Below are positions 39,582 to 55,631 of a stretch of DNA of 64,000 bases, piece after piece. The translations under genes were made by a program, and so were the position numbers. How positions within the stretch are numbered: position 1 is the stretch's first letter; each line of letters opens with the position of its first letter. The DNA comes from Formosa algae (GTDB taxonomy: Bacteria; Bacteroidota; Bacteroidia; Flavobacteriales; Flavobacteriaceae): assembly GCF_001439665.1 (NCBI RefSeq), contig NZ_LMAK01000078.1, positions 62,001 to 126,000 of the forward strand, read 5' to 3'. The notes under the pieces are model-generated. The model ran no database searches and was not told where the DNA came from. It saw only the letters and a program-made list of their open reading frames with translations.

Positions 39582-39624
39582 TATAGATAAATACTGTTAT
39601 TTCTTATAATTACATAACAAATAC

Positions 39625-40671: not shown

Positions 40672-40674
40672 AAT

Positions 40675-41232
40675 TTACTCTGGTCTATTACCGTTTCCTA
40701 ATACTAAATCGATTTTAGATGTTTTAGGTAACATATCGCCTGTCTTTATTTTTTCGCCGTCATGAGATACTTCTAAAACCATATCTTTGGCAATATTGTC
40801 TTCGTATCTAATGGTTCCTACCTGAAAACCTAAAGCTTCTAAAGTAGGTTTGGCTTGTCTAAATGTACGATCTGTTAATGCTGGTACTAACACTTTTCTG
40901 TATCCAGACGGATTAAGTGTTATATATATTTTTCTATCTTCTTTAACTTTAAATCCTGCTTTAGGGTCTTGTTCTATAACAGAAAATCTAGGATAATCTG
41001 GATTGTAATTCGCAGAATCCTGAATTTGCATAACGAGCTTATTTTTTTCTAATTCAGCTCTAGCTACATCTATTGAAACTCCCGTTAAGTCTGGAACCGT
41101 TTCAAACTTACCATGGTTTGTTGTACTATCTAACCATCTTAATGTTAAATAACTCAACACAAAAATAGCAACTACAGCTAAAAGCAAATTAAGAAAGAAT
41201 GTTTTACTAGTAAGGAATTTTATAAGGCCCAT
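40675..41232 (-). CDS. Membrane-anchored protein with two PASTA domains
   Basis: From the ATG at 41232 the protein has about 185 residues: an N-terminal membrane segment (about 12-32) followed by two PASTA repeats (about 45-110 beginning FETVPDLTGVSIDVARAELE, and about 112-180 beginning VLVPALTDRTFRQAKPTLE). PASTA repeats bind peptidoglycan fragments or help cell-wall enzymes; there is no kinase or penicillin-binding domain here. The gene is divergent from ddl and upstream of rluD, an arrangement common in Flavobacteriaceae. An in-frame TTG at 41253 lies in the -7 box and is not the start. Confidence 0.85.
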   Translation of the reverse strand: MGLIKFLTSKTFFLNLLLAVVAIFVLSYLTLRWLDSTTNHGKFETVPDLTGVSIDVARAELEKNKLVMQIQDSANYNPDYPRFSVIEQDPKAGFKVKEDRKIYITLNPSGYRKVLVPALTDRTFRQAKPTLEALGFQVGTIRYEDNIAKDMVLEVSHDGEKIKTGDMLPKTSKIDLVLGNGNRPE

Positions 41233-41250
41233 GATATAGAATTTGATTGG

Positions 41251-41258
41251 CAAAGATA
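41251..41258 (-). promoter_or_regulatory. -7 promoter box of the PASTA-rluD operon
   Basis: The minus strand reads TATCTTTG (TAnnTTTG) 18 bases before the ATG at 41232. The divergent ddl box is 18 bases further. Confidence 0.5.
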
Positions 41259-41276
41259 TAAAAACCGTTCTGTTTT

Positions 41277-41284
41277 TACTTTTG
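41277..41284 (+). promoter_or_regulatory. -7 promoter box of ddl
   Basis: TACTTTTG matches TAnnTTTG, 52 bases before the ddl ATG. Confidence 0.45.
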
Positions 41285-41336
41285 ATTAATAAATGATATT
41301 TTAGCTAAACGATTTTTTCCATCGTTTGTTACTATT

Positions 41337-42320
41337 ATGAAAAAAAATATAGCCATCGTTATGGGAGGTTATTCTAGCGAATATGAAATCTCCTTAAACA
41401 GCGGAAACGTTGTTTACCAGTCACTTGATACCGAAAAATTCAATGCATACAAAATCCATATTTTTAAAAATAAATGGGTTTATGTTAATAATGAAGATAA
41501 AGAATTTCCTATCGATAAAAATGATTTTTCTGTAACTGTTGATGGTAAAAAGACCAGCTTCGATTGTGTTTTTAATGCAATTCATGGTGCTCCGGGTGAA
41601 GATGGCCAACTACAAGGCTATTTTAATCTCTTAAATATGCCACAAACAAGTTGCGAAATGTACCAAGCTGCCGTAACCTATAATAAACGTGACTGTTTAA
41701 GCATATTAAAACCTTATGGTATAAAAACTGCTGAATCTTACTACGTTAATCTTGGAGATGTTATTGATGAAGATACCATAATTAAAAAAGTAGGCCTACC
41801 ATGCTTTGTTAAAGCAAACAAAGCCGGAAGTAGTTTCGGTGTCACTAAAGCGTATAAAAAAGAAGATTTAAAAGCATCTATAGACACCGCTTTTAAAGAA
41901 GATGACGAAATTATTATTGAATCATTTTTAGATGGTGTAGAAGTCTCTGTTGGTGTGATTACTTACAAAGGAGCAACAACCGTATTACCGATTACAGAAA
42001 TTGTAAGTGAAAATGATTTTTTCGATTACAAAGCCAAATATTTAGGACAGTCTCAAGAAATAACGCCAGCAAGACTAACCCCTGAACAAGAGCAAAGTGT
42101 AAATACGCTTGCTAAAAAAGTATATGAAATTCTAAAAATGAAAGGGTTTTCTAGAAGTGAATTTATATTCAAAGACGGCGAGCCGCATTTATTAGAGATA
42201 AATACGGTTCCTGGCATGACTAAAGAAAGTATTTTACCACAACAAGCCGCAGTAGCTGGAATATCTTTATCTGAGTTATTTGAAAGTGCTATTGAAGATG
42301 CTTTAAGATATAAATCGTAA
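41337..42320 (+). CDS. ddl: D-alanine--D-alanine ligase
   Basis: Ddl joins two D-alanines with ATP for peptidoglycan precursor synthesis. The 327 residues are an ATP-grasp fold: N-terminal IVMGGYSSEYEISLNSG, FNAIHGAPGEDGQLQGYF, the ATP-binding LPCFVKANKAGSSFGVTK, and metal ligands in FSRSEFIF and EINTVPGMTKESILPQQ. It forms an operon with coaD 32 bases downstream. Confidence 0.96.
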   Translation: MKKNIAIVMGGYSSEYEISLNSGNVVYQSLDTEKFNAYKIHIFKNKWVYVNNEDKEFPIDKNDFSVTVDGKKTSFDCVFNAIHGAPGEDGQLQGYFNLLNMPQTSCEMYQAAVTYNKRDCLSILKPYGIKTAESYYVNLGDVIDEDTIIKKVGLPCFVKANKAGSSFGVTKAYKKEDLKASIDTAFKEDDEIIIESFLDGVEVSVGVITYKGATTVLPITEIVSENDFFDYKAKYLGQSQEITPARLTPEQEQSVNTLAKKVYEILKMKGFSRSEFIFKDGEPHLLEINTVPGMTKESILPQQAAVAGISLSELFESAIEDALRYKS

Positions 42321-42352
42321 ATTCACGCCACTAAACTTTTAACACAGCTAAC

Positions 42353-42817
42353 ATGAAACGCGCCATATTTCCTGGATCTTTTGACCCTTTAACTTTAGGA
42401 CATCTCGATATTATTTCTCGTGCCGTTCATGTTTTTGATGAAATTATAGTAGCCATCGGAATCAATTCTGAAAAGAACTATATGTTTACCTTAGAAGAAC
42501 GTCTTAATTTTATAAAAGAAACCTTTAAAGATGAACCTAAAGTATCTGTAACAACCTACTCTGGACTGACTGTAGATTTCTGTATAAAAATGGATGTCGA
42601 ATTTATTTTACGCGGACTTAGAAATCCTGCCGATTTTGAATTCGAAAAAGCCATTGCACAAACAAACCGTAAGCTTTCTGAAATAGAAACAGTGTTTTTA
42701 CTAACCTCATCTAAGACCTCTTTTATAAGTTCTAGTATTGTTAGAGATGTAATACGACACAATGGAGATTACACACTCCTTGTTCCCGATAATGTAAGAG
42801 TAAAAAAAGCGCCATAA
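42353..42817 (+). CDS. coaD: Phosphopantetheine adenylyltransferase
   Basis: CoaD adenylates 4'-phosphopantetheine to dephospho-CoA. The 154 residues have the nucleotidyl-transferase signature FPGSFDPLTLGHLDII with the conserved histidine, LRGLRNPADFEFE, and the SSIVRD loop near the C-terminus. Length is typical (150-165). The stop lies inside the terminator hairpin. Confidence 0.96.
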   Translation: MKRAIFPGSFDPLTLGHLDIISRAVHVFDEIIVAIGINSEKNYMFTLEERLNFIKETFKDEPKVSVTTYSGLTVDFCIKMDVEFILRGLRNPADFEFEKAIAQTNRKLSEIETVFLLTSSKTSFISSSIVRDVIRHNGDYTLLVPDNVRVKKAP

Positions 42818-42832
42818 TTGGCGCCTTTTTTT
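42802..42832. terminator. Bidirectional terminator between coaD and the SulP gene
   Basis: GCGCC (42809-42813) pairs with GGCGC (42820-42824), with A-run and T-run on the outside (one mismatch between). It serves coaD on the plus strand and the SulP gene on the minus strand. Confidence 0.8.
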
Positions 42833-42833
42833 A

Positions 42834-44729
42834 TTAAAATTTATATTCCGAAAGTGGTTTAGGAAACTCTTCAGGATTCGCTGCTAAGTGATAACGCGGA
42901 TCGTGAACATCTTCTATTATAACTTCCTTAAATTTCGGATTCGCTTTATACATAAGTATTTTACAATCTTCACTTAAGTGCTTTAGCTTAATAGATTTTC
43001 CTTCAGCTTCATATTTATTTACAATATTAGTAATGGCTTCTAATGCTGAATGATCACTAACACGAGATTCTACAAAATCGATATACACCTCATCTGGATC
43101 GTTTTTAACATCAAATTTCTCATTAAAAGCGGTAATTGAACCAAAAAATAAAGGTCCCCAAATTTCATAAGTTTTAATATTTCCATCCTGAGAAAAACGC
43201 TTTCTTGCTCTAATCTTTTTAGCATTTTCCCATGCAAAAGACAATGCAGAAATAATTACTCCCACAAATACTGCAATAGCTAAATCAAAAAACACTGTCA
43301 CTACAGATACAATTACTAACACCACTGCATCAGATACCGGTATCTTTTTCATAATACGTAAACTTGACCAAGCAAAAGTTTCAATAACCATCATAAACAT
43401 CACCCCTACTAAAGCGGCAATAGGCACTTGCTCAATATATTTATCTGCAAACAATATAAATGTTAGTAAAGTTATCGCCATCATTACACCAGATAAACGT
43501 CCTCTACCACCTGCATTAATATTAATTACAGTTTGTCCAATCATACCACAACCACCAGTACCACCTAAGATTCCGCTTAACATATTCCCAGCACCTTGAG
43601 CTACACATTCTCTATTTCCATCTCCTCGTGAATCTGTTAATTCATCTACAAGATTCATCGTCATTAACGTTTCTATTAATCCTACAGAAGCTGCTAAAAA
43701 CGCATAAGGCGCAATAAATTTTAATGTATCTAAATTAAATGGCAAATGGCTCCAAAGCTCTCCAAGATTTAGTTTGCTAGACAATTCGTCAAAACCGTTA
43801 AGACCTGCTCCTCCTCCATCTCTAATAAAATCTCCGACATTTATAGACTGTAATCCTCCAAATATTGAAATTAAAGTCACAATTAAAATAGCGGTTAATG
43901 CAGCAGGCATTTTTTTAGTCAATTTAGGTAATCCCCAAATAATTAGCATAGTTAACAGTACCAAACCAATCATAACATAAAGCTTATTGCCTTCCATAGT
44001 GGACTTTACAACACCATTATCTTTAACTGAATAAAACCCGTTATCCTGAACATTAAAGACGACTTTTTTAGTTTTTACGTCGAAAACTTGATTGTCGGAC
44101 ATAATAAACACCTCTTCACCAGTACTAGCATTAGTTATCGATTCTCCATTGATTGAAAACAATTTACTACCAGAAATTAAATCGGTTACAGCATTATCAT
44201 TTACATTATAAACCAATTCTTTAGAAACGGTTTTACGCATGTTTTGACCGAATACATCTTTAGTATTTTCTTTAAACATACCCAATTGTGCCATAAAAAT
44301 GACAATAGCCAAACCATTTACAAAACCTAACATTACAGGATGCGGTATTAATCGTACAAATTTTCCAAGTTTGAAGATACCCGACAAAATCTGAATAACA
44401 CCCATTAACACAACCGCAGCTAGTAAATAGAAATAGCCCATATTTTCTACAGGCGTATCAAATAAAAGACCTTTAGCATGTCCTTCCTGGATCATGTGCA
44501 CAAAAATAACTGCCACAGCTCCCGCTGCTCCAGAAATTAAACCTGGTCGTCCACCAAATAAGGCCGAAACAATTCCGATAATAAAGGCTCCAAAAAGGGC
44601 AACAATCGGACTAATTTGAGCCACAAAGGCAAAGGCTACAACTTCAGGAATCATGGCCAGTGATACCGTTACACCTGCTAAAACATCATCCTTCGCATTA
44701 GGTGTTATTTTCCTTATAAAATCTGTCAT
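42834..44729 (-). CDS. SulP family inorganic anion transporter with STAS domain
   Basis: This inner-membrane transporter probably carries sulfate, bicarbonate or another anion by exchange or sodium symport. From the ATG at 44729 there are about 631 residues: many membrane segments with SulP motifs (MIPEVVAFAFVAQISPIVALF, GGRPGLISGAAGAVAV, GGTGGCGMIGQT) and a C-terminal STAS domain (about 525-625, VYIDFVESRVSDHSALEAI). An unusual insert of about 85 residues follows VIFMAQLGMF (about 160-250), with repeated VxNVxDN patterns, probably extracytoplasmic. The GTG reading from 44777 is not used because the promoter -7 box falls in it. Confidence 0.9.
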   Translation of the reverse strand: MTDFIRKITPNAKDDVLAGVTVSLAMIPEVVAFAFVAQISPIVALFGAFIIGIVSALFGGRPGLISGAAGAVAVIFVHMIQEGHAKGLLFDTPVENMGYFYLLAAVVLMGVIQILSGIFKLGKFVRLIPHPVMLGFVNGLAIVIFMAQLGMFKENTKDVFGQNMRKTVSKELVYNVNDNAVTDLISGSKLFSINGESITNASTGEEVFIMSDNQVFDVKTKKVVFNVQDNGFYSVKDNGVVKSTMEGNKLYVMIGLVLLTMLIIWGLPKLTKKMPAALTAILIVTLISIFGGLQSINVGDFIRDGGGAGLNGFDELSSKLNLGELWSHLPFNLDTLKFIAPYAFLAASVGLIETLMTMNLVDELTDSRGDGNRECVAQGAGNMLSGILGGTGGCGMIGQTVININAGGRGRLSGVMMAITLLTFILFADKYIEQVPIAALVGVMFMMVIETFAWSSLRIMKKIPVSDAVVLVIVSVVTVFFDLAIAVFVGVIISALSFAWENAKKIRARKRFSQDGNIKTYEIWGPLFFGSITAFNEKFDVKNDPDEVYIDFVESRVSDHSALEAITNIVNKYEAEGKSIKLKHLSEDCKILMYKANPKFKEVIIEDVHDPRYHLAANPEEFPKPLSEYKF

Positions 44730-44749
44730 CTTTTCTTTTTTAAGAGGGG

Positions 44750-44757
44750 CAAAAATA
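44750..44757 (-). promoter_or_regulatory. -7 promoter box of the SulP gene
   Basis: The minus strand reads TATTTTTG, matching TAnnTTTG, 20 bases before the ATG at 44729; a CTTG about 22 bases upstream may be the -33 element. Confidence 0.45.
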
Positions 44758-44825
44758 CAGTTAAAATGGGGACTCACAAGTTCTTAATGTAATAATTTCA
44801 TTAAGTTTGTTTAAAAATACTAAGA

Positions 44826-46559
44826 ATGAAATTATCCACCTCTGTTTTCATTATATTCCTATTATTGAATACCTTACACACACAATCTCAAAATGATTTC
44901 ACAACACATTTTGAAAAAAGTAATGGTCTAGAAACAGCAACTTATGCAGAAGTTATTCAATTTTATAACAATCTCGCCTCAACGTATCCGCAAATAGACA
45001 TACAAACTATAGGCGAAACTGACTCTGGAAAGCCACTACACCTGGTGACTTTGAACCCTGATAAGGTCTTCGAGTTTTCAAAAATCAGAACAAACAAACG
45101 TATTCTTCTCGTAAATAATGGCATTCATCCAGGAGAAAGCGATGGTATTGATGCAACCATGATGTTGTATAGAGACATTGTTCAAGGCAAGATTAGTATG
45201 CCTAAGCATACCGTTTTAGTAACCATTCCTATTTATAATATTGGTGGTAGTTTAAACAGAAATGCGACAACCAGAACCAACCAAAATGGCCCCTTAGAAT
45301 ATGGGTTTAGAGGAAATGCTCGCAATTACGATTTAAACCGCGACTTTATAAAAAGCGATACTAAAAACGCAAAAACGTTTGCAGAAATTTTCCATAAAGT
45401 GCAACCGGATGTGTTTATAGATAACCACGTAAGTAATGGAGCCGATTACCAATACACCCTCACGCATTTATTTACACAACACAATAAACTTGGCGGAAAT
45501 TTAGGCACCTATTTACATACTAAAATGATGCCAGAACTGGAACAGAGTTTAGCTAAAAAAGAATGGGACATTACACCTTACGTTAATGTTTTTAATCAGG
45601 TTCCTGAAATTGGATTCAGTCAGTTTATAGATCACCCAAGATACTCTACAGGTTACACCACTTTATTTAACACCTTAGGAATGATGGTAGAAACACATAT
45701 GCTAAAACCATACAAACCTCGAGTTGAAGGCACTTACGAACTTATGAAAAGTATGATTTCTATTATTGAAAAAGATTACAAAACCATTAAAACATTACGC
45801 GAAGATGCCAACAACTCCTTTCTTAATGCAAAGACTTACAGTTTAGGTTGGACCATAGACACCACAAAATCTTCTACACTGCAATTTAAAGGGTTTGAAG
45901 GCGAATATAAAACAAGTGATGTAACGGGTTTAAAACGTTTAAAATACGACAGAACACAACCTTTTACCAAACCTGTTACATACCAAAATTACTTTAAACC
46001 TACAGTGGAAATTACTATTCCAGAAGCCTATATTATTCCGCAAGGTTGGTATACTATTATTGAGCTGTTAAAACTGAATCAGGTAAAGATGATACCTTTG
46101 GAAACAGATAAAACGTTTACTGTTGAAAGTTACCACATAACAGATTTCAAAACCAAATCTTCACCTTATGAAGGTCATTATCTACACAGTAATACCACTA
46201 CAGAATCAACAACCCAACAAATCACATTTAGAGCTGGCGATTTTTATATAGAAACCCGACAACCAGCCATTCGTTATCTTTTAGAAACTTTAGAACCGCA
46301 AGCTGTGGATTCGTTTTTTAACTGGAATTTCTTCGACACTATTTTACAACAAAAAGAAGGGTTTTCGCCTTACGTTTGGGAAGATTTAGCCTTAGCGCTA
46401 TTAAATAAAAACCCAAAACTGAAGCAAGAATTTGAAGCTAAAAAAGCATCTGACCAAGAATTTAAATCGAATTGGTATGCACAGTTAGACTGGATACATA
46501 AACACAGTGACAATTATGAAAAAGCCCATATGCTTTACCCTGTTTTTAGAGTAAAATAA
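44826..46559 (+). CDS. Exported M14 family zinc metallocarboxypeptidase
   Basis: The 577-residue protein has a signal peptide (about 1-21, LLNTLHTQSQ) and a zinc carboxypeptidase M14 domain. Zinc ligands are visible as NGIHPGESDG and the histidine in DNHVSNGADYQYTLTH; MVETHML holds the likely catalytic glutamate. The remaining C-terminal half has no recognised domain. It is exported to the periplasm or beyond. The substrate is unknown; M14 members cut C-terminal residues from peptides or peptidoglycan-like amides. It precedes the ATP-grasp operon on the same strand by 88 bases, but a candidate -7 box lies in that gap, so membership is uncertain. Confidence 0.85.
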   Translation: MKLSTSVFIIFLLLNTLHTQSQNDFTTHFEKSNGLETATYAEVIQFYNNLASTYPQIDIQTIGETDSGKPLHLVTLNPDKVFEFSKIRTNKRILLVNNGIHPGESDGIDATMMLYRDIVQGKISMPKHTVLVTIPIYNIGGSLNRNATTRTNQNGPLEYGFRGNARNYDLNRDFIKSDTKNAKTFAEIFHKVQPDVFIDNHVSNGADYQYTLTHLFTQHNKLGGNLGTYLHTKMMPELEQSLAKKEWDITPYVNVFNQVPEIGFSQFIDHPRYSTGYTTLFNTLGMMVETHMLKPYKPRVEGTYELMKSMISIIEKDYKTIKTLREDANNSFLNAKTYSLGWTIDTTKSSTLQFKGFEGEYKTSDVTGLKRLKYDRTQPFTKPVTYQNYFKPTVEITIPEAYIIPQGWYTIIELLKLNQVKMIPLETDKTFTVESYHITDFKTKSSPYEGHYLHSNTTTESTTQQITFRAGDFYIETRQPAIRYLLETLEPQAVDSFFNWNFFDTILQQKEGFSPYVWEDLALALLNKNPKLKQEFEAKKASDQEFKSNWYAQLDWIHKHSDNYEKAHMLYPVFRVK

Positions 46560-46607
46560 TATGTGAAAAATTTAATATTAGGATGTAAAACATATTTAAA
46601 AATAATA

Positions 46608-46615
46608 TACATTTG
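46608..46615 (+). promoter_or_regulatory. -7 promoter box of the ATP-grasp operon
   Basis: TACATTTG matches TAnnTTTG, 32 bases before the ATG at 46648. No clear -33 element is seen. A four-codon reading frame (46634-46648) ends on the TAATG start and is probably chance. Confidence 0.4.
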
Positions 46616-46647
46616 ATTCAAATTTATATCGCTATGCAGCGCCATTA

Positions 46648-48093
46648 ATGAACAAGTATATTGTTGTCAATCAACCTGAAAAATGGAATTTTTCGATTGA
46701 GAATATCAAAGTAATTTCTTCGCAAGAATACCTTACTAATCCTGAATTTTCACTAGTTAAAAAAGCTAGAATTTTCAACTTATGCAAAGATTACTCCTAC
46801 CAATCTAAAGGCTATTATGTATCGCTTTTAGCAGAGGCTAGAGGTCATTTGCCTATTCCGAACATAAAAAATATAGTCGATTTAAAAGCTTTAAAACTTG
46901 TAAGAATTGTGTCCGACGAATTTGACGACACCATCCAACAAAGTTTAAAGAATATAAAATCGCAAGAGTTTACGTTAAGCATTTATTTTGGGCAGAACGT
47001 AGCACAAAAATACAAGGAGTTAAGCCTGTTGTTTTACAAACATTTTCAGGTGCCGTTTTTGCGCGTAAAATTTAACCATACAACCAAGTGGAACATTCAA
47101 AGTATTAAAGCTATTTCTGAATCTGAAATACCATCAGAGCATTTAGAAAGTGTTCAGCAATTTGCTAATCAATATTTTTCTAAAACACGTTACGATTTTC
47201 CGAAGTTAACTAAAAGTGATTTCGATTTAGCCATATTAGTAAACCCTAAAGATCCTGCGCCTCCAAGTAATGCTAAGGCCCTTAAGAAGTTTATAGATTT
47301 GGCTGAAAAAATGAACATTTATGCTGAAATTATTGAACCTAAAGATTTGTCCCGCTTATCGTCTTTCGATGCTTTATTTATCAGACAAAGTACAGAAGTA
47401 AATAACGAAGCCTACGCCTTTGCAAGAAAAGCACAGCAAGAAGGTCTCGCTATTATAGATTATCCAGATGCTATTTTAAAATGTTGCAATAAAGTGTATA
47501 TGGCCGAAGCTTTGCAAAATGCAAATATAGATACGCCTAAGACAATTATTGTACACAAAGATAACAAGCAACAGGTACTTGATGAAGTGGGTTTACCTTG
47601 TGTGTTAAAAGCACCAGATTCTACGTTTTCTTTTGGTGTAAAAAAGGCCAAAACAGAAACAGAATACCATAACTTGGTTTCTGAGATGTTAAAAGAATCT
47701 GATTTAATTATTGCACAAGAATTCTGTCCGTCAGATTTTGATTGGCGCATAGGTATTTTAGACGACAAACCGTTTTACGCTTGTAAATATTACATGGCTA
47801 AAGGGCATTGGCAAATCTATAATTGGAATGCTAAAAAGAAAGACGACCAAGATGGTAATGCCGACTGTTTACCTATAGAATCTGTTCCCAAAAAAGTATT
47901 AAACATGGCCATAAAATCGGCCAAACTTATGGGTAAAGGTCTTTATGGTATCGACATAAAAGTGGTAGATAACAAACCTATGGTTATTGAAATTAACGAC
48001 AACCCAAATATCGATTTTGGTGTAGAAGACGCTCATTATGGCGATGCCGTTTACACAGAAATTTTATCTGCATTAAAAAAACGTTTAGATTAA
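46648..48093 (+). CDS. RimK-like ATP-grasp amide ligase with RLAN-type N-terminal domain
   Basis: This cytoplasmic enzyme of 481 residues should activate a carboxylate with ATP and join it to an amine. An N-terminal domain (about 1-160) looks like the RLAN domain found ahead of RimK-like ligases. The ATP-grasp part (about 200-481) has the ATP-binding LPCVLKAPDSTFSFGVKKA, LYGIDIKVVDNKP and the metal ligands in MVIEINDNPNIDFG. The product is unknown: RimK relatives add glutamates to proteins or make peptides. The GCS2 gene starts 1 base after its stop, and an N-formylglutamate amidohydrolase gene follows, so the three act together. Confidence 0.85.
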   Translation: MNKYIVVNQPEKWNFSIENIKVISSQEYLTNPEFSLVKKARIFNLCKDYSYQSKGYYVSLLAEARGHLPIPNIKNIVDLKALKLVRIVSDEFDDTIQQSLKNIKSQEFTLSIYFGQNVAQKYKELSLLFYKHFQVPFLRVKFNHTTKWNIQSIKAISESEIPSEHLESVQQFANQYFSKTRYDFPKLTKSDFDLAILVNPKDPAPPSNAKALKKFIDLAEKMNIYAEIIEPKDLSRLSSFDALFIRQSTEVNNEAYAFARKAQQEGLAIIDYPDAILKCCNKVYMAEALQNANIDTPKTIIVHKDNKQQVLDEVGLPCVLKAPDSTFSFGVKKAKTETEYHNLVSEMLKESDLIIAQEFCPSDFDWRIGILDDKPFYACKYYMAKGHWQIYNWNAKKKDDQDGNADCLPIESVPKKVLNMAIKSAKLMGKGLYGIDIKVVDNKPMVIEINDNPNIDFGVEDAHYGDAVYTEILSALKKRLD

Positions 48094-48094
48094 A

Positions 48095-49321
48095 ATGAAT
48101 AAAAAATATCATCTTTTTGATGTTTATGGAATTGAACTAGAATACATGCTAGTAAATCAATCCGATTTAAAAATTGCTCCAATTGTTGATGCGCTTCTCA
48201 TTAAAAAGCATGGCAAATTAACCTCGGATATTGTAAATGGTAAAATAGCTTGGAGCAACGAATTGGTTGCCCATGTTGTAGAAATAAAAACCAATGGGCC
48301 AACTAAAAATTTAAATGGTTTGGCCGACTTATTTCATAAAAACGTATTAGAAATCAATGCGCTTTTAAAACCTTTACAGACCGAGTTATTACCTACCGCT
48401 GCTCATCCTTTTATGAACCCCGTAAGTGAAACGCAACTTTGGAAGCACAGTTATAGCGAAGTTTACGAATTATACAACCGTATTTTTAATTGTAAAAATC
48501 ACGGCTGGAGCAACGTGCAAAGTGTTCATATAAATTTACCATTTTTTGACGATAAAGAGTTTGAAAAGTTACACGCAGCCATCCGTATAATACTTCCGCT
48601 TATTCCGGGTTTAAGTGCGAGTTCACCAATATTAGAAGGAAAATTGACAGGCTTTAAGGACACGCGATTAGAATACTACAAAACCAATCAGAAAGAAATT
48701 CCTGAAATGACTGGACTTGTTATTCCTGAGCGTGTGTTTACAAAACTGGATTATTTTGCCACTATTTTTGAACCAATTAAGAAGGCTATAAAACCATTTG
48801 ACACCCATAATATTTTAGATCATCATTTCTTAAATTCCCGTGGTGCTATTGCGCGTTTCGATAGAAATGCCATAGAAATACGCTTAGTCGATATTCAAGA
48901 ATGTCCGAAAGCAGATTTAGCTATTTGTGCTTTAATTATTGAAACTCTAAAATTATTAGTCAATAAAAAGCTATCGCCTTTAGCGGCTCAAAAACGATGG
49001 ACTAAAGAAGACTTATATGTAATTCTTAATGATGCAATTAAACACGGAGAGACTTCAGTAATAGAAAACTTAGACTATCTAAATGTATTTGATATTGAAG
49101 ACGCTTGTTCTATTCAAGATGTTTGGAAACATATCTATCAATTAGCTAAACCTAACATACACAAATCGCACTATAAGACTATTGAAACTATTTTAAACGA
49201 AGGCACTTTAGCAACTCGAATTGAAAAGGTTTTGGCAGAAGATTATTCTGAATCTAATGTGCTTAAAGTATACAAATCACTTACAAGCTGTCTGGAGACT
49301 AACACCTTATTTTTAAAATGA
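48095..49321 (+). CDS. Glutamate-cysteine ligase family 2 (GCS2) amidoligase
   Basis: The 408-residue enzyme is a member of the GCS2 (YbdK-like) carboxylate-amine ligase group, related to glutamine synthetase-type folds. The N-terminus has GIELEYMLVNQ, with the glutamates used for metal/ATP; further motifs are VHINLPFF and, in the C-terminal half, LNSRGAIARFDRNAIEIRLVD. Its amine and acid substrates are unknown; family members make gamma-glutamyl amides with ATP. It follows the RimK-like gene by 1 base and overlaps the next gene by 4 bases (ATGA), so the three genes are translationally coupled. Confidence 0.83.
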   Translation: MNKKYHLFDVYGIELEYMLVNQSDLKIAPIVDALLIKKHGKLTSDIVNGKIAWSNELVAHVVEIKTNGPTKNLNGLADLFHKNVLEINALLKPLQTELLPTAAHPFMNPVSETQLWKHSYSEVYELYNRIFNCKNHGWSNVQSVHINLPFFDDKEFEKLHAAIRIILPLIPGLSASSPILEGKLTGFKDTRLEYYKTNQKEIPEMTGLVIPERVFTKLDYFATIFEPIKKAIKPFDTHNILDHHFLNSRGAIARFDRNAIEIRLVDIQECPKADLAICALIIETLKLLVNKKLSPLAAQKRWTKEDLYVILNDAIKHGETSVIENLDYLNVFDIEDACSIQDVWKHIYQLAKPNIHKSHYKTIETILNEGTLATRIEKVLAEDYSESNVLKVYKSLTSCLETNTLFLK

Positions 49322-50004
49322 AATTGCTTTTAACTTGCGAACATGGTGGAGCAAACATACCTAAACGATTTGCATCTGCCTTTATAAATGAAAAAACCAC
49401 TTTACAAACGCATCGTGGTTTTGATATTGGCGCTTTAGATCTTTTTAAGTATTTAAAACCGTTAGCAGATTTTACAAACTACAGTGAAACTAGTCGGTTA
49501 TTAATTGAGCTAAACAGATCGTTGCATCATAAAAACCTGTTTTCAGAATATGCTAAAACGCTATCTAATTCAGATAAAGAATATCTAATTACTAGTTATT
49601 ATAAGGTATACAGAAATGCTTTAGAACAATACATTTCAAAAGAAATTAATAAAGAAAACACAGTTATTCATCTAGCGATACATAGCTTTACTCCTGTTTT
49701 AAAAGGAGAACAACGCACTTGCGATATCGGACTTTTATATGACACCGAGCGTGCTGAAGAATCTAAATTTTGCAAAACATTTAAATCGAATTTACACCTT
49801 GAGAATCCGAGATTAAAAACACGTTTTAATTATCCGTATTTAGGAAAGGCAGATGGTTTAACAACCTATCTACGCAAACAACATCCTTTAAATTATATTG
49901 GTATTGAGTTAGAAGTTAATCAGAAATTTGCTTCACAAAATATGATGCCGTCACTTTTAAAGCATCAAATTTACGGAGCTTTAAAAGCGAGTATCATTAA
50001 ATAA
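49318..50004 (+). CDS. N-formylglutamate amidohydrolase family protein
   Basis: The 228-residue cytoplasmic hydrolase belongs to the N-formylglutamate deformylase/amidohydrolase family. Conserved motifs are LLTCEHGGANIPKRF at the start, HRGFDIGALDLFKYL, ELNRSLHH, IHSFTP and the final IELEVNQKF. The classical role is deformylation in histidine degradation, but no hut genes lie here and the operon suggests instead cleavage of a terminal amide made by the two ligases upstream. Its stop overlaps the convergent NUDIX gene stop (49997-50004). Confidence 0.85.
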   Translation: MKLLLTCEHGGANIPKRFASAFINEKTTLQTHRGFDIGALDLFKYLKPLADFTNYSETSRLLIELNRSLHHKNLFSEYAKTLSNSDKEYLITSYYKVYRNALEQYISKEINKENTVIHLAIHSFTPVLKGEQRTCDIGLLYDTERAEESKFCKTFKSNLHLENPRLKTRFNYPYLGKADGLTTYLRKQHPLNYIGIELEVNQKFASQNMMPSLLKHQIYGALKASIIK

Positions 50005-50578
50005 GCGGACGAATATTAGCATACGAATTTTCTAAAGCCTGAATCGCTTCAACTTCATTTAACCATGCCACTTTAGTAATGCCTTCGTTATGTTGTGGCC
50101 ATAAATTTCCTTTAAAATCTGTAGACATTTCAAACCAATGCGTTACTTTAATTTTAAATTTACCGTTACGCTTAAATATGTGGTAGGTAGTATGTAAAGG
50201 CTTAGTAATTTTTAAACCTGAAACTCCTGTTTCTTCTTCTACTTCTCTTAAAGACGTTTCTTCTATGGTTTCACCAGACTCGGCTTTTCCTTTAGGTAAA
50301 TCCCATTTATCGTTTCTATATATAAACAGAATACTGCCATCTTTATTATAAACTTTACCACCACCTGCAACAACGTTAGGTAGTTTCTTTAAAAACTTTT
50401 TAAGTAATTTATCTCCATTTTTGTGAATTAATCGCACTTCCTTTAAAGAAGTAGTATTTAACTCCTTAATTACTTTACCAATATGAACAGTATCTAATAA
50501 GTAATTCTTAAAATGTGTTTCCTTTTCAACCACAGTGGTTAAAATGATTGGCTTGTCGTTGACAAATATTTTATACAT
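49997..50578 (-). CDS. NUDIX hydrolase
   Basis: The 193-residue protein has a NUDIX box with GKAESGETIEETSLREVEEE, fitting G-x5-E-x7-REVxEE. Before it is an N-terminal region of about 65 residues without recognised motifs. Substrates of such proteins are nucleoside diphosphates linked to another group; here the substrate is unknown. The stop overlaps the stop of the converging hydrolase gene. It is divergent from pyrE. Confidence 0.87.
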   Translation of the reverse strand: MYKIFVNDKPIILTTVVEKETHFKNYLLDTVHIGKVIKELNTTSLKEVRLIHKNGDKLLKKFLKKLPNVVAGGGKVYNKDGSILFIYRNDKWDLPKGKAESGETIEETSLREVEEETGVSGLKITKPLHTTYHIFKRNGKFKIKVTHWFEMSTDFKGNLWPQHNEGITKVAWLNEVEAIQALENSYANIRPLI

Positions 50579-50688
50579 ATAAAAAATATCCTACATTAAT
50601 TATGGTAAAAGTATCAATTTTTATAGCAAACATATTAACTTTAAAAAAATAATTTTAATAGACAAGAAGTATTATTTTAATTAATGTG

Positions 50689-50696
50689 TAATTTTG
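50689..50696 (+). promoter_or_regulatory. -7 promoter box of pyrE, 5 bases from the ATG
   Basis: TAATTTTG matches TAnnTTTG and is followed after five bases by the pyrE ATG at 50702. A leaderless mRNA is predicted. Confidence 0.45.
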
Positions 50697-50701
50697 CATC
50701 T

Positions 50702-51346
50702 ATGATTTTAAACAAACAAACAGCTCGAAAAACTGCTGAAGTTTTACTGCAAGTAAATGCAATAAAACTAAGCCCTAGCGCTCCCTTTACGTGGGCCTCT
50801 GGATGGAAATCGCCTATTTATTGCGACAACAGGATTATACTATCTTTTCCGCTAATTAGAAATTACATACGTGAAACTATGGCCAAACATATTGAAGAAC
50901 AATATGGAAAACCAGACGTTATTGCTGGTGTTGCTACTGGTGCTATAGGTATAGGTATGTTGGTTGCAGAATATTTAGGAGTTCCTTTTATTTATGTAAG
51001 ACCTGAAGCTAAAAGTCATGGTAGACAAAACCAGATTGAAGGCTTTATCCAAAAAGGACAAAATGTTGTTGTTGTTGAAGATTTAATTAGTACAGGAAAA
51101 AGCAGTCTAAATGCTGTGCGTGCACTTAGAGAAGCAAATCTGAATGTAAAAGGTATGATTGCTATTTTCTCTTACGGTTTTAATATCGCTAAAGAGAATT
51201 TTGAAAAAGAAAATGTAATGCTTCAAACCTTAAGTAACTACGACAGTTTAATCATGCAAGCTGTAGAAACAAATTACGTTTCGCAAGCCGAAGTAAAAAC
51301 ATTGACAGATTGGAACTCCAATCCGAGTGAATGGAACGCTATTTGA
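50702..51346 (+). CDS. pyrE: Orotate phosphoribosyltransferase
   Basis: PyrE joins orotate to PRPP in UMP synthesis. From the ATG at 50702 there are 214 residues, with FTWASGWKSPIYCDNR near the N-terminus, DVIAGVATGAIGIGM, RPEAKSHGRQNQIEG, and the PRPP-binding VVVVEDLISTGKSSLNAV. The upstream in-frame ATG at 50684 lies 5' of the -7 box and is not used. It precedes a SRPBCC-domain gene by 24 bases. Confidence 0.95.
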   Translation: MILNKQTARKTAEVLLQVNAIKLSPSAPFTWASGWKSPIYCDNRIILSFPLIRNYIRETMAKHIEEQYGKPDVIAGVATGAIGIGMLVAEYLGVPFIYVRPEAKSHGRQNQIEGFIQKGQNVVVVEDLISTGKSSLNAVRALREANLNVKGMIAIFSYGFNIAKENFEKENVMLQTLSNYDSLIMQAVETNYVSQAEVKTLTDWNSNPSEWNAI

Positions 51347-51370
51347 TTATATCTTAACAAATAAAAAATC

Positions 51371-51766
51371 ATGAATTTAGAATCTCCAAAAGTAACGGTA
51401 GACAAATCATCTCAAGAGGTATTTGATTTTCTTTCTGATATTAAAAATTTTGAAAAACTAATGCCAGATAACATTAGTAAGTTTGAAATTTTAGACGACG
51501 ACAAATTTCTATTCGCCTTAAAAGGGATGCCAGAAATTATTTTAAAAAAGAAAGAAGTGGTTCCGCCAAACAAAATAGTTTTAGGCGCTGCAGGCGGTAA
51601 ATTAGACTTTTCTTTAGTAGGAAATATTACGGAGACTGCTGAAGGAAAAAGTGAGGTTAAACTTCAGTTTGAAGGCGATTTCAACCCTATGATGGCTATG
51701 ATGGTAAAAGGACCTATTTCAAAGTTTATTGAAACCTTAGCGACTAAAATGCCAACATCTATTTAA
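51371..51766 (+). CDS. SRPBCC/polyketide-cyclase-fold protein
   Basis: The 131-residue soluble protein has the START/SRPBCC fold of CoxG or orthologues: N-terminal VTVDKSSQEVFDFLSDIKNFEKLMP, and strands through FSLVGNITETAEGKSEVKLQFEGD, ending with FIETLATKMP. A hydrophobic ligand pocket is typical; the ligand is unknown. It follows pyrE by 24 bases. Its stop overlaps the stop of the convergent birA gene by 4 bases. Confidence 0.8.
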   Translation: MNLESPKVTVDKSSQEVFDFLSDIKNFEKLMPDNISKFEILDDDKFLFALKGMPEIILKKKEVVPPNKIVLGAAGGKLDFSLVGNITETAEGKSEVKLQFEGDFNPMMAMMVKGPISKFIETLATKMPTSI

Positions 51767-52494
51767 TACAACAAGGTTATTTCTTTTAAATTATAAACTT
51801 TTATAATTTCATCTTCTAACAGCACTTTTAAATGACCAAGTTCTGTTACACCAAGAATAAAACCGGCAAACATACTGCCTTCAGCATCTAAAAATGTTGA
51901 AGGCTTATTCTTTTTAAATAATTCGCTTTCGTATTCGTTTTTTATTTTTTTGTACTGTCCGCGTTCAAGCCAAGCAAAACATTCTTTTAATTCTACAAGA
52001 ATGTGATATAATACTTCATCTAAATCAAAAACACGTCCTACCATATTAACTAAAGAAGACGCTTTGGGAAGTCCTACAAAATCTGTCTGATTAACATTTA
52101 CTCCAATACCAAGCACACTGTCTCTAAGTCCGTTTGATGTTACAATATTTTCAATAAGCACTCCACATATTTTCTTATCTGCTGACAAAATGTCGTTAGG
52201 CCATTTTATTTTTACTCGAGGTAATGCCAGTTTTTTCAAAGCTTTATAAATCCCTATAGCGGTAACCATACTAATATAAAACTGCTTTTCTACGGGTACA
52301 AAAGAAACATCTTTAAATACACTAAACATTAGGTTTTTAGCGGTTTCAGACTCCCAAATCGTTCCCATTTGTCCGCGTCCCATGGTCTGTTCTTTAGCGA
52401 CTACTACAGTATAATCTTCAACCATTTCGCAACTACTTAATTGTTTTAAAAAAGTATTGGTTGAATCGATGGCATCAAGTTTGATTATATGCAT
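51763..52494 (-). CDS. birA: Biotin--[acetyl-CoA-carboxylase] ligase
   Basis: BirA attaches biotin to the carrier protein of acetyl-CoA carboxylase. The 243 residues contain the biotin/lipoyl ligase motifs GRGQMGTIWESETAKNLMFS, VKIKWPNDI, and KKICGVLIENI. There is no N-terminal DNA-binding domain, so it is the enzyme-only form rather than the repressor. It is divergent from rsfS. Confidence 0.93.
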   Translation of the reverse strand: MHIIKLDAIDSTNTFLKQLSSCEMVEDYTVVVAKEQTMGRGQMGTIWESETAKNLMFSVFKDVSFVPVEKQFYISMVTAIGIYKALKKLALPRVKIKWPNDILSADKKICGVLIENIVTSNGLRDSVLGIGVNVNQTDFVGLPKASSLVNMVGRVFDLDEVLYHILVELKECFAWLERGQYKKIKNEYESELFKKNKPSTFLDAEGSMFAGFILGVTELGHLKVLLEDEIIKVYNLKEITLLY

Positions 52495-52561
52495 TTATAT
52501 TATTTATGTAGGCAGGATGAAAACTTCTGCAAATTTTAAAGTATAAAGAACTAAAAAATAA

Positions 52562-52569
52562 TAACTTTG
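52562..52569 (+). promoter_or_regulatory. -7 promoter box of rsfS-ftsH
   Basis: TAACTTTG matches TAnnTTTG, 19 bases before the rsfS ATG. Confidence 0.5.
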
Positions 52570-52588
52570 TACAAATTAAATCAAATTA

Positions 52589-52960
52589 ATGGCGAAAGAA
52601 AACACAAATTCAGACTTGCTAATTGCCACCATCTTAAGTGGAATTGAAGATGTTAAAGGAAAAGAAATAAATATTTTAGACTTACGTGAAATTGAAAATA
52701 CGGTTTGTGATTATTTTATAATCTGCGAAGGTACCTCAAACACTCAAGTTAATGCCATTGTAAACGCTGTCCAGAAAAAAGTTAGTAAAGAACTTAAAGA
52801 CAAACCTTGGCACACAGAAGGGCAAGACAATGCCGAATGGGTATTAATAGATTATGTGAATGTTGTAGTTCATGTTTTTCAAAAGCATATCCGCGAATAC
52901 TACGACATTGAAAGCCTATGGGGCGATGCAAAAACAACGATAATTGAAACAAACTATTAG
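52589..52960 (+). CDS. rsfS: Ribosomal silencing factor
   Basis: RsfS (YbeB/Iojap) binds ribosomal protein L14 and blocks subunit joining under starvation. The 123 residues show the family motifs GIEDVKGKEINILDLREIE, DYFIICEGTSNTQVNAI, WHTEGQDNAEWVLIDYVNVVVHVF and YDIESLWGDA. Length is normal. It is 5 bases ahead of ftsH, and both are transcribed from the box at 52562. Confidence 0.95.
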   Translation: MAKENTNSDLLIATILSGIEDVKGKEINILDLREIENTVCDYFIICEGTSNTQVNAIVNAVQKKVSKELKDKPWHTEGQDNAEWVLIDYVNVVVHVFQKHIREYYDIESLWGDAKTTIIETNY

Positions 52961-52965
52961 ATTTA

Positions 52966-54903
52966 ATGGCAAACGAAAAGAAAACTCCAAATAAGAAACC
53001 TAAATTAAATCCGTATTGGATTTACGGAGCTATTATTGCAATCTTTATTGCAATGCAGCTTTTTAACAGTAATAGTTTACAAGACTCTACCACAACTACT
53101 CCATCAGAATTCATGAAATATCTGAGCGATGGTGATATTGAAACTGTAGAAATTGTAAACAAGAGAGAAGCAGATGTTTATTTAACAGATGAAGCTTTAC
53201 AAAAAGAAGAACATAAGAATTCAAAACCGTCTACGTTACTTCCAACAGCATCTAAACAGCCAAATTATAGTTTTGAATTTGGTGATTTACAAAATTTTGA
53301 AAATCAAGTAAATGCTGCAATTAAAGATCAAGGGTTAAAAACTCATGTAGAATACAAAACAGAACAAAACCTAATGGGAGATTTCCTTATTGGTATTCTG
53401 CCTTTTATTCTATTAATAGGAGTTTGGATCTTTATTATGCGTAGAATGTCTTCTGGTGGAGGTGGCGGTGCTGGAGGTCAAATCTTTAACATCGGAAAAT
53501 CTAAAGCTAAATTATTCGATCAGAATACAGACGTTAAAACATCGTTTAAAGATGTAGCCGGTTTAGAAGGTGCTAAAGAAGAAATTCAAGAAATTGTAGA
53601 CTTCCTTAAGAACCCAGAAAAATACACAGCTCTTGGTGGTAAAATACCAAAAGGCGCATTACTTGTAGGCCCTCCAGGAACAGGAAAGACCTTATTAGCA
53701 AAAGCCGTTGCAGGTGAAGCTAAAGTACCGTTCTTCTCTTTATCAGGATCAGATTTCGTAGAGATGTTTGTAGGTGTAGGTGCATCTCGTGTTAGAGATT
53801 TATTTAAACAAGCTAAAGAAAAATCTCCAGCAATTATTTTTATTGATGAAATTGATGCTATTGGACGTGCAAGAGGGAAAAGTAATATGTCTGGATCTAA
53901 CGATGAAAGAGAAAATACTTTAAACCAGTTGTTAACAGAAATGGATGGTTTTGGAACCAACACAAATGTAATTGTGTTAGCTGCAACCAACAGAGCAGAT
54001 GTTTTAGATAGTGCTTTAATGCGTGCCGGTCGTTTTGACAGACAAATTTTTGTTGACTTGCCAGATATTAGAGAACGTGAAGAAATTTTTGAAGTTCATT
54101 TAAAACCTATCAAAAAATCTGAAAATCTTGATACAGATTTCTTAGCAAAACAAACACCAGGTTTCTCTGGAGCAGATATTGCTAATGTATGTAACGAGGC
54201 TGCTTTAATTGCTGCAAGACAAGGTAAAAAAGCTGTAGACAAACAAGATTTCTTAGATGCTGTAGACCGTATTATTGGTGGTTTAGAGAAGAAAAATAAA
54301 ATCATTACACCTAGCGAAAAGAAAGCTATTGCTTTTCATGAAGCTGGTCATGCTACAGTGAGTTGGATGTTAGAACATGCTGCACCTTTAGTAAAAGTTA
54401 CTATAGTACCACGTGGTCGTTCTTTAGGAGCTGCATGGTATTTACCAGAAGAACGCCTAATTGTTAGACCAGAGCAAATGCTAGACGAAATGTGTGCTGC
54501 ATTAGGAGGTCGTGCTGCAGAGAAAGTTATTTTTAATAAAATCTCTACAGGAGCTTTAAGTGATCTTGAAAAAGTGACTAAACAAGCACGAGCAATGGTT
54601 ACCGTTTATGGATTAAGCGATAAAGTTGGAAACTTAACGTATTATGACTCTTCTAGTCAAAACGAATATGGTTTTACAAAACCTTATAGTGAAAAGACTG
54701 CAGAACTTATCGATAAAGAAATATCTGATATTATTGAAAAACAATACGAAAGAGCAATCAAACTTTTAGAAGATAACAAAGACAAACTTACAGAGTTAGC
54801 CGATGTACTTTTAGAAAAAGAAGTTATTTTTAAAGATAACCTTGAGAAAATATTTGGTAAACGCCCTTTTGATCCAGAATTAAAACCCCTTTTAGATAAA
54901 TAA
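52966..54903 (+). CDS. ftsH: ATP-dependent zinc metalloprotease FtsH
   Basis: FtsH is a membrane-bound AAA+ protease that degrades misfolded membrane and regulatory proteins. The 645 residues have two membrane segments (about 18-35 and 140-160), a glycine-rich linker, the AAA module with GPPGTGKTLLAKAVAGEA, IIFIDEIDAIG and the SRH region, and the zinc protease domain with H458-E459-A-G-H462. Length is normal. It is followed by a strong terminator. Confidence 0.97.
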   Translation: MANEKKTPNKKPKLNPYWIYGAIIAIFIAMQLFNSNSLQDSTTTTPSEFMKYLSDGDIETVEIVNKREADVYLTDEALQKEEHKNSKPSTLLPTASKQPNYSFEFGDLQNFENQVNAAIKDQGLKTHVEYKTEQNLMGDFLIGILPFILLIGVWIFIMRRMSSGGGGGAGGQIFNIGKSKAKLFDQNTDVKTSFKDVAGLEGAKEEIQEIVDFLKNPEKYTALGGKIPKGALLVGPPGTGKTLLAKAVAGEAKVPFFSLSGSDFVEMFVGVGASRVRDLFKQAKEKSPAIIFIDEIDAIGRARGKSNMSGSNDERENTLNQLLTEMDGFGTNTNVIVLAATNRADVLDSALMRAGRFDRQIFVDLPDIREREEIFEVHLKPIKKSENLDTDFLAKQTPGFSGADIANVCNEAALIAARQGKKAVDKQDFLDAVDRIIGGLEKKNKIITPSEKKAIAFHEAGHATVSWMLEHAAPLVKVTIVPRGRSLGAAWYLPEERLIVRPEQMLDEMCAALGGRAAEKVIFNKISTGALSDLEKVTKQARAMVTVYGLSDKVGNLTYYDSSSQNEYGFTKPYSEKTAELIDKEISDIIEKQYERAIKLLEDNKDKLTELADVLLEKEVIFKDNLEKIFGKRPFDPELKPLLDK

Positions 54904-54933
54904 TCTATTAAGTAGTTACGCTTAATAGCAGGA

Positions 54934-54972
54934 AAAATCTTAAATTGACCTTTGGTTAATTTAAGATTTTTT
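54934..54972 (+). terminator. Rho-independent terminator after ftsH
   Basis: A stem of about 16-17 bp (54934-54950 with 54954-54970) with a 3-base TTT loop is followed by a T-run. It lies 31 bases after the ftsH stop. Confidence 0.9.
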
Positions 54973-54979
54973 ATCTTTG
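54951..54979 (+). promoter_or_regulatory. Promoter of the LUD-cdsA-psd-ACBP operon, overlapping the ftsH terminator
   Basis: TTTG (54951-54954) lies in the loop of the ftsH terminator hairpin and is followed by 17 bases and TATCTTTG (54972-54979), directly after the T-run. The first gene starts at 55020. Confidence 0.5.
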
Positions 54980-55019
54980 AACAAACCCTATTTAACATAG
55001 ATTAATCGCAGATGTCTTA

Positions 55020-55631
55020 ATGAGTCTATTTAGAAAACTTTTTGGTTCCAAATCAAATAAATCAGAAGAGGAAATAAAATCGGAAGACAGAGGCAAATAC
55101 ATGCCTGAAATAAAACTACCTATAGATGAAAAGTTTACAATAAACTTTAAGGAAAATGGTGGTAAATTTTTGTATTGCGAAAATTTAGATGAAATTTTTC
55201 AAACCCTAGATTATATCATAGAAGAAAACAGTTGGGAAGATAAAAAAATTCTTATTCTGGAAAACGAATTAAAAAAACGTTTTGCTTCATCTAGTTTAAA
55301 CATGGCTAAGCCTAATGATACCGACACAACTTATTTTTTAACAAGTTGTGAAAGCTTAATTGCAGACGATGGTTCATTATTAATTTGTTCTAAACAAATC
55401 GCAGAAAAAAAACTAGCAGATCTTCCAAGTAATTTTATTGTGTTCTCCACTACAAGTCAGATAGTAGGAAGCATAAGTGAAGGGCTACGTAAAATTAAAT
55501 CTAAAAACACGCAAAGAATTCCAACAAATATTACTACAATAAAGCATTTTAAATTAGAAGAGGAAAAAAACTTTATGACCTATGGTAGTAATTCAAAAAA
55601 CCTATATTTGCTGCTTTTAGAAGACCTCTAA
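55020..55631 (+). CDS. LUD domain protein (lactate utilisation-like)
   Basis: The 203-residue protein resembles the LUD (LutC/LutB-like) superfamily seen in lactate utilisation proteins; the substrate here is not known. Motifs include a basic N-terminal region, FFLTSCESLIADDGSLLIC-like strand and turn (DDGSLLICS), LPSNFIVFSTTSQIV and the terminal LEEEKNFMTYGSNSKNLYLL. There is no iron-sulfur cluster domain. It is the first gene of an operon with cdsA, psd and ACBP, starting 1 base before cdsA (gap of 1 base). Confidence 0.72.
   Translation: MSLFRKLFGSKSNKSEEEIKSEDRGKYMPEIKLPIDEKFTINFKENGGKFLYCENLDEIFQTLDYIIEENSWEDKKILILENELKKRFASSSLNMAKPNDTDTTYFLTSCESLIADDGSLLICSKQIAEKKLADLPSNFIVFSTTSQIVGSISEGLRKIKSKNTQRIPTNITTIKHFKLEEEKNFMTYGSNSKNLYLLLLEDL

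Follow-up and report, generated by a model that had tools for sequence, protein, structure and literature searches.

The window analyzed here, a stretch of 64,000 nucleotides from Formosa algae, carries at positions 46648-50004 an operon of three genes for an RLAN-RimK ATP-grasp carboxylate-amine ligase, a GCS2-family ligase and an FGase-family amide hydrolase, and this gene order recurs across phyla far beyond chance. The operon is best read as the reduced form of a four-enzyme module, which in most other lineages also includes a C39-type cysteine peptidase. That it represents, in the Flavobacteriaceae, a cytosolic module which makes and recycles a short non-ribosomal peptide is a tentative reading, held at close to even confidence. 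The families RLAN, GCS2 and FGase were known before; the apparently new part is the RLAN-RimK form without C39 and with GCS2. The original prediction, made from the letters of the window, had missed two features, namely the C39 peptidase as a fourth gene and a sister form in which a GNAT enzyme takes the place of GCS2.

Conservation of the operon

The gene for the RLAN-RimK ligase (46648..48093, forward strand) is an open reading frame (ORF) of 481 amino acids with Pfam RLAN and ATP-grasp matches. A gap of 1 base separates it from the gene for the GCS2-family ligase (48095..49321, forward strand, 408 amino acids, Pfam GCS2), a predicted gamma-glutamyl amide former, which is joined by an ATGA overlap at 49318-49321 to the gene for the FGase-family hydrolase (49318..50004, forward strand, 228 amino acids, Pfam FGase). 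These ORFs and junctions agree with the three tightly coupled genes that had been described, and the Pfam matches are secure for two distinct ligases and one amide hydrolase. Amino acid degradation genes, said to be missing from the surroundings, were not evident by eye in the ORF list between positions 42000 and 54000, with five ORFs scanned against Pfam.

Among 60 genomes of the same family, with that of F. algae included, a full-length ligase was present in six at 74 to 100% identity, plus one fragment at a contig edge. Within the family, the ligase was patchy yet strongly conserved where found, with the order RimK-GCS2-FGase in 6 of 6. In 296 Bacteroidota genomes, RLAN was found in 35 and the GCS2 subfamily of the operon, defined by a best match above 370 bits, in exactly 24, while the other 10 genomes with any GCS2 match reached at most 25.1 bits. 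All 24 belonged to the 35 RLAN genomes, with adjoining genes, and were distributed over eight family codes (hypergeometric p of 3e-27 for the co-occurrence, kinship ignored). The remaining 11 RLAN genomes contained 10 GNAT-RLAN-RimK fusions and, in genome G213, a short relative beside a GNAT-C39-like ORF.

A scan of genome contigs yielded at least 591 relatives of the ligase, the best 80 of which were taken, a choice biased toward the kin of the query. According to the record titles, these 80 include Bacteroidota, Fibrobacter, Desulfobacterota, Deltaproteobacteria, Ignavibacteria, Planctomycetota, Verrucomicrobia, Omnitrophota, Uhrbacteria, Nitrospirae, Tectomicrobia, Hydrogenedentota, Myxococcales and other proteobacteria. 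A GCS2 gene adjoined the ligase gene in 76 of them and was lacking in four. The three-gene order is kept across phyla, well outside the close relatives of F. algae, so that the original prediction withstood this part of the refutation test it had set for itself.

The 179 RLAN-RimK loci scored (177 distinct ligases, those of L062 and L150 and those of L165 and L226 being identical) comprised 106 with GCS2, 56 with an adjacent GNAT, 11 with a fused GNAT, six with neither and none with both, as far as one type of GNAT is concerned. The contig-edge fragment L027 was not counted. The ligase ORF of L058 was frame-mixed and left out of later ligase alignments; its GCS2 row was kept for the search of the 296 genomes and dropped from the GCS2 hidden Markov model used for scoring loci. 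The median gaps were 2 bases between C39 and RimK (63 loci), -4 between RimK and GCS2 (106 loci) and -4 between GCS2 and FGase (81 loci), and no pair was on opposite strands. An FGase gene was present in 81 of the 106 GCS2-type loci, on the strand of the ligases in all 81, and in none of the 67 GNAT-type loci scored.

No fifth gene family of at least 80 amino acids recurred across lineages near the module, and neither a transporter, a regulator nor a larger precursor was recurrent among ORFs of at least 80 amino acids. A cluster found in 13 loci was discarded as a fifth partner; it overlaps the C39 and RimK genes and was taken to consist of shadow ORFs. Carriage by phages was rejected, with only partial matches covering 42 to 47% of the ligase in six phage records, and so was carriage by plasmids, with a GCS2 match in 1 of 72,556 plasmid records. 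This sole plasmid record matching this GCS2, 9073 bases from Legionella adelaidensis (L215), is annotated with the order RimK-GCS2-FGase. A known antiphage defense system was also rejected, since no PADLOC family matched at 0.001 when the three proteins of the operon and a C39 protein were searched.

The three enzymes

The ligase matched Pfam RLAN at residues 26-170 (2.1e-48), RimK at 281-456 (5.6e-10) and Dala_Dala_lig_C. It belongs to the RLAN-RimK family by its architecture, in which the RLAN domain precedes a RimK-like ATP-grasp domain. All 24 aligned sequences share K282, K321, D365, R367, D436, E448 and N450, in a region that aligns with the structures of RimK and LysX, and we take K282, K321, R367, D436, E448 and N450 to be ATP-grasp catalytic residues. 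The structure model (predicted local distance difference test [pLDDT], 86.8) had RimK, LysX, ArgX and Ddl as its best folds in the PDB, and all of the 50 fold matches listed were of these types, including RimK in complex with RpsF (5zk6); among these matches, the fold of the RLAN domain found no counterpart.

The GCS2 protein was assigned to its family by the Pfam match (6e-27), by fold and by conserved residues: its model (pLDDT, 92.2) was closest to YbdK relatives and a plant glutamate-cysteine ligase, and G12, E14, E16, H145, N147 and R191 were invariant in 23 of 23 aligned sequences. By their conserved signatures and model folds, both ligases are best read as amide-forming enzymes. The hydrolase belongs to FGase (Pfam, 1.8e-16; PDB relative 2odf) with C7, E8, H9, D36, R60, N66, R67, H118 and H122 invariant in 16 of 16 sequences. 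HutG-type enzymes are members of the FGase family, but the protein had no NCBIfam match at 0.001, the HutG equivalog included.

A C39 peptidase as the fourth enzyme

Directly before the ligase gene, with a median gap of 2 bases, a cysteine peptidase of the C39 type, about 240 amino acids long, was encoded in 63 of the 67 GCS2-type loci outside the Flavobacteriaceae (61 of 65 when identical ligases were merged), and in none of the 39 Flavobacteriaceae-type loci, to which the F. algae operon belongs. A C39 profile found nothing above 22 bits in 14 whole Flavobacteriaceae genomes, compared to more than 270 bits in five genomes of other groups. This profile is weak for the DUF3335 type of C39, giving 20 bits for that of G213, so that such genes could be missed. 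All 17 aligned sequences have Cys15, His171 and Asp189, which presumably form the catalytic triad; the regions around the cysteine and around His/Asp align with ComA-type C39 structures, the latter weakly. The C39 peptidase was probably lost in the Flavobacteriaceae. It is a usual, although not universal, partner in the RLAN-RimK family, and the F. algae operon is without it.

In two loci, a DUF155 gene lies just before the C39 gene (L081:5136-5921 and L083:5927-6715), and L085 has an unscanned ORF of similar size.

GCS2 or GNAT as the partner of the ligase

A second form of the module predominated in the Pseudomonadota. In 299 genomes of this phylum, RLAN was found at 59 places in 56 genomes, and these 59 regions comprised 55 with an adjacent GNAT, one GNAT fusion, one of the GCS2 type and two with neither. 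Of the 55 GNAT ORFs, 42 had at least 300 amino acids, with ORF starts that are rough. Ten GNAT proteins were scanned: seven long ones combined GNAT with a C39-like DUF3335 domain and three short ones consisted of GNAT alone. Fusions of DUF3335 proteins to GNAT are described as frequent (PMC10318531). A GNAT profile derived from the fusions reached at least 80 bits in GNAT-type loci and matched a single time, with 35 bits, in GCS2-type loci; it had no match within positions 39601-55100 of the window.

Ligase trees were calculated in three versions, one without the short L091, one of 77 of 178 rows and one of 44 rows. They required two changes between GNAT and GCS2. In the 77-row tree, the GNAT-fused Bacteroidota clade was nested inside the GCS2 clade, and in the 44-row tree GCS2 formed one group in 0 of 200 bootstrap trees. 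A replacement of GCS2 by GNAT in evolution is therefore favored by the trees, albeit not proven.

As a separate case, a plasmid record of P. aeruginosa (L214) has an RLAN-RimK gene near a gamma-glutamyltransferase and a glutamate/aspartate ABC transporter.

Proposed function of the module

GNAT enzymes acylate amines and GCS2 enzymes form gamma-glutamyl amides. The nearly exclusive occurrence of GCS2 and GNAT beside one ligase suggests that they share a similar job, the capping of an amino end. We infer an order of steps in which RLAN-RimK would use ATP to activate a carboxylate, which it would link to an amine provided by another amino acid or peptide. GCS2 would then activate the gamma-carboxylate of glutamate and cap the amino end of the peptide with a gamma-glutamyl group, a role that an acetyl group from the GNAT enzyme would fill in the sister systems. 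The FGase hydrolase, confined to the GCS2 form among the scored loci, would take off the glutamyl cap, and in most other lineages the C39 cysteine peptidase would cleave the remaining bond. The lack of a recurrent transporter, regulator or larger precursor fits a cytosolic compound.

The original prediction had proposed that the operon makes and trims a small peptide or a protein modification. In view of the conserved unit and the catalytic signatures of both ligases, the making and trimming of a peptide or amide is the most likely reading; the choice between the two products is left undecided by sequence, with a small peptide being favored. On a larger scale, many phyla may share undescribed cytosolic short non-ribosomal peptides with a bond made by RLAN-RimK, exchangeable GCS2 and GNAT caps and a turnover by hydrolases as for a stress or storage solute, which is possible but doubtful; the solute role would rest only on the analogy to the N-acetylglutaminylglutamine amide (NAGGN) system discussed below. 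The compact enzyme set occurs across many phyla, and the predicted cap, gamma-glutamyl in one branch and acetyl in the other, should make the product findable by a comparison of metabolomes in two kinds of host.

Several observations weigh against this proposal. RimK itself modifies a protein, and the substrates and the product of the module are predictions. FGase was not beside 25 of the 106 GCS2-type loci, some of which are at contig ends, and six loci had neither GCS2 nor GNAT as partner; the 15 features listed for the P. aeruginosa record L214 likewise included none of GCS2, GNAT and C39. In the 10 Bacteroidota genomes with a GNAT fusion, the C39 profile, which is weak for the DUF3335 type, gave no hits. 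If these genomes have indeed lost C39, this would argue against a simple one-for-one equivalence of GCS2 and GNAT, and the two forms may not be doing the same job. Concerning the trees, the approximately unbiased test narrowly failed to reject one GNAT clade (p-AU of 0.052, 44-row tree), and the well-supported branches alone were compatible with a single origin of GCS2. The statement that GNAT and GCS2 never occur together is limited to the RLAN type of GNAT. A broader GNAT search found ORFs of the GNAT-nitrilase type (about 508 amino acids) near 6 of the 106 GCS2-type loci, all of them Flavobacteriaceae-type (6 of 39), with scores that are inflated because the GNAT part of the L023 protein was in the query; a further GNAT-like ORF in L158 reached 47 bits. 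The GNAT-nitrilase ORFs (L023:8056-9585, L094:5386-6915, L099:5366-6892, L092:3824-5353, L117:10403-11926 and L100:1514-3040) are on the same strand at distances of 73 to 3961 bases, with three lying no more than 110 bases from the ligase gene, and the L023 protein carries a CN_hydrolase domain. Because of the variable distance and the occurrence in only 6 of 39 Flavobacteriaceae-type loci, the GNAT-nitrilase gene is read as a chromosomal neighbor, like the M14-like gene described in the last section.

Instead of building a free peptide, the module may tag a protein. RLAN-RimK would extend it by amino acids as RimK does with ribosomal protein S6, GCS2 or GNAT would cap or branch the extension, and FGase and C39 would remove it. 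The nearest folds, RimK with the RpsF complex among them, are consistent with such a function, two ligases and two hydrolases would suit a reversible tag, and RimK-RimB is a reversible ligase-peptidase pair (PMC12239564). However, the module has no recurrent target gene next to it, and the genome also encodes a RimK-sized ATP-grasp protein (296 amino acids), so that modification of S6 would need no RLAN-RimK. GNAT as the alternative partner would also be a better fit to a small amine cap, and protein tagging is considered unlikely. A thiol pathway resembling that of glutathione is rather improbable. In this case, GCS2 would act like GshA and produce gamma-glutamyl-cysteine, to which the ATP-grasp enzyme would add a third residue like GshB. 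Both share the two-ligase logic, and YbdK-type proteins and the plant glutamate-cysteine ligase are the closest folds to the GCS2 model; the ATP-grasp protein gave weak matches to NCBIfam glutathione synthetases, 28 and 20 bits versus cut-offs of 408 and 272, but RimK and Ddl models scored higher for it. The two GSH-S_ATP matches of the genome are on other contigs and do not include the operon ligase, BshC (457 bits) points to bacillithiol, and the GNAT sister form is without a counterpart in glutathione synthesis.

An exported natural product or a ribosomally synthesized and posttranslationally modified peptide (RiPP) of the graspetide kind, with its precursor encoded nearby, is very improbable: ATP-grasp ligases and C39-family peptidases are both known from RiPP loci (PMC8939145), but no transporter or extra ORF of at least 80 amino acids was recurrent, smaller ORFs not being searched, and the module genes mostly abut or overlap. 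Degradation of N-formylglutamate or of intermediates of the histidine pathway, with the ligases only loosely linked, is hardly plausible. It would draw on the HutG-type members of FGase, but no hut gene was seen by eye between 42000 and 54000, the hydrolase was unmatched in NCBIfam at the threshold given above, and its gene followed the strand of the ligases wherever it was present. One of the GSH-S_ATP matches, glutathione synthase-like, is located at G000:C77:37532-38062 on the reverse strand (locus L280), in a frame of 354 amino acids and in the same genome as BshC.

Relation to known systems

Among the papers listed by literature searches, none was recognizable as dealing with this operon and none assigned a product to this set of enzymes. 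RLAN-RimK and GNAT-C39 amidoligase systems were reportedly described by Iyer et al. in 2009 (Mol Biosyst). They are reported to resemble the loci found here in the pairing of the RLAN-RimK ligase with a C39-like peptidase, and GNAT plus DUF3335 was also seen beside RLAN-RimK in this analysis; in contrast, the F. algae operon has GCS2 and FGase in the place of GNAT and is without C39. Iyer et al. are also said to assign peptide synthesis to linked ATP-grasp, GNAT and COOH-NH2 ligases. Other prediction work takes the same view of such linked enzymes (PMC4431377).

The Ngg protein of the NAGGN system has an ATP-grasp domain. As the precedent for the proposed module, Ngg carries out both the acetylation of glutamine and the formation of the peptide bond, in an operon that also contains a peptidase gene (PMC8070244). 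The likeness is a ligase, an amine capping and a peptidase in one operon, leading to a capped dipeptide; the difference is that the F. algae operon has neither AsnO nor a GNAT domain, with a gamma-glutamyl cap being proposed instead. The NAGGN system does not appear in the names of the 20 NCBIfam models listed as matches of the ligase. The succession of a gamma-glutamyl ligase and an ATP-grasp ligase is shared with GshA-GshB, but the operon uses another ATP-grasp family, has dedicated hydrolases and possesses a GNAT sister form. With RimK-RimB, which acts on S6, the module shares the ATP-grasp fold and the pairing of ligase and peptidase, but it has an extra RLAN domain, other peptidases and GCS2 or GNAT as partner.

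Promoter-like box and neighboring genes

A match to TAnnTTTG, TACATTTG, is present on the forward strand at 46608..46615, 40 nucleotides before the start codon of the RLAN-RimK gene; we take this motif to be the -7 promoter box of Bacteroidota. It occurred within 120 nucleotides upstream of the ligase gene, mostly at -25 to -40, in 31 of the 39 Flavobacteriaceae loci compared to 3.98 expected from shuffled upstream sequence, an excess that is overstated because these loci are kin and not independent. A scan of this stretch for sigma-70-type promoters remained at the level of chance, with 27 found versus 25.9 expected.

Upstream of the operon, positions 44826-46559 on the forward strand encode an exported-looking protein of 577 amino acids with an N terminus that resembles a signal peptide by eye. 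It had been labeled an M14 carboxypeptidase 88 bases upstream that could belong to the operon. The gap is indeed 88 bases (46560-46647), but the family assignment depends on the reading of a motif, and the protein was unmatched in Pfam (E up to 10), NCBIfam (0.001) and the sequences of the PDB (E up to 1). Its gene was within 7 kb of 15 of the 39 Flavobacteriaceae-type loci and of none of the 67 other GCS2-type loci, and in the congener locus L022 a gene for a ClC-type channel is situated between it and the ligase gene. Membership in the operon was consequently rejected. Because of the patchy proximity and the box before the ligase gene, it is probable that the operon is transcribed from a promoter of its own and that the M14-like gene is a chromosomal neighbor. 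At the other end of the operon, a convergent NUDIX gene on the opposite strand overlaps the final 8 bases of the FGase gene.

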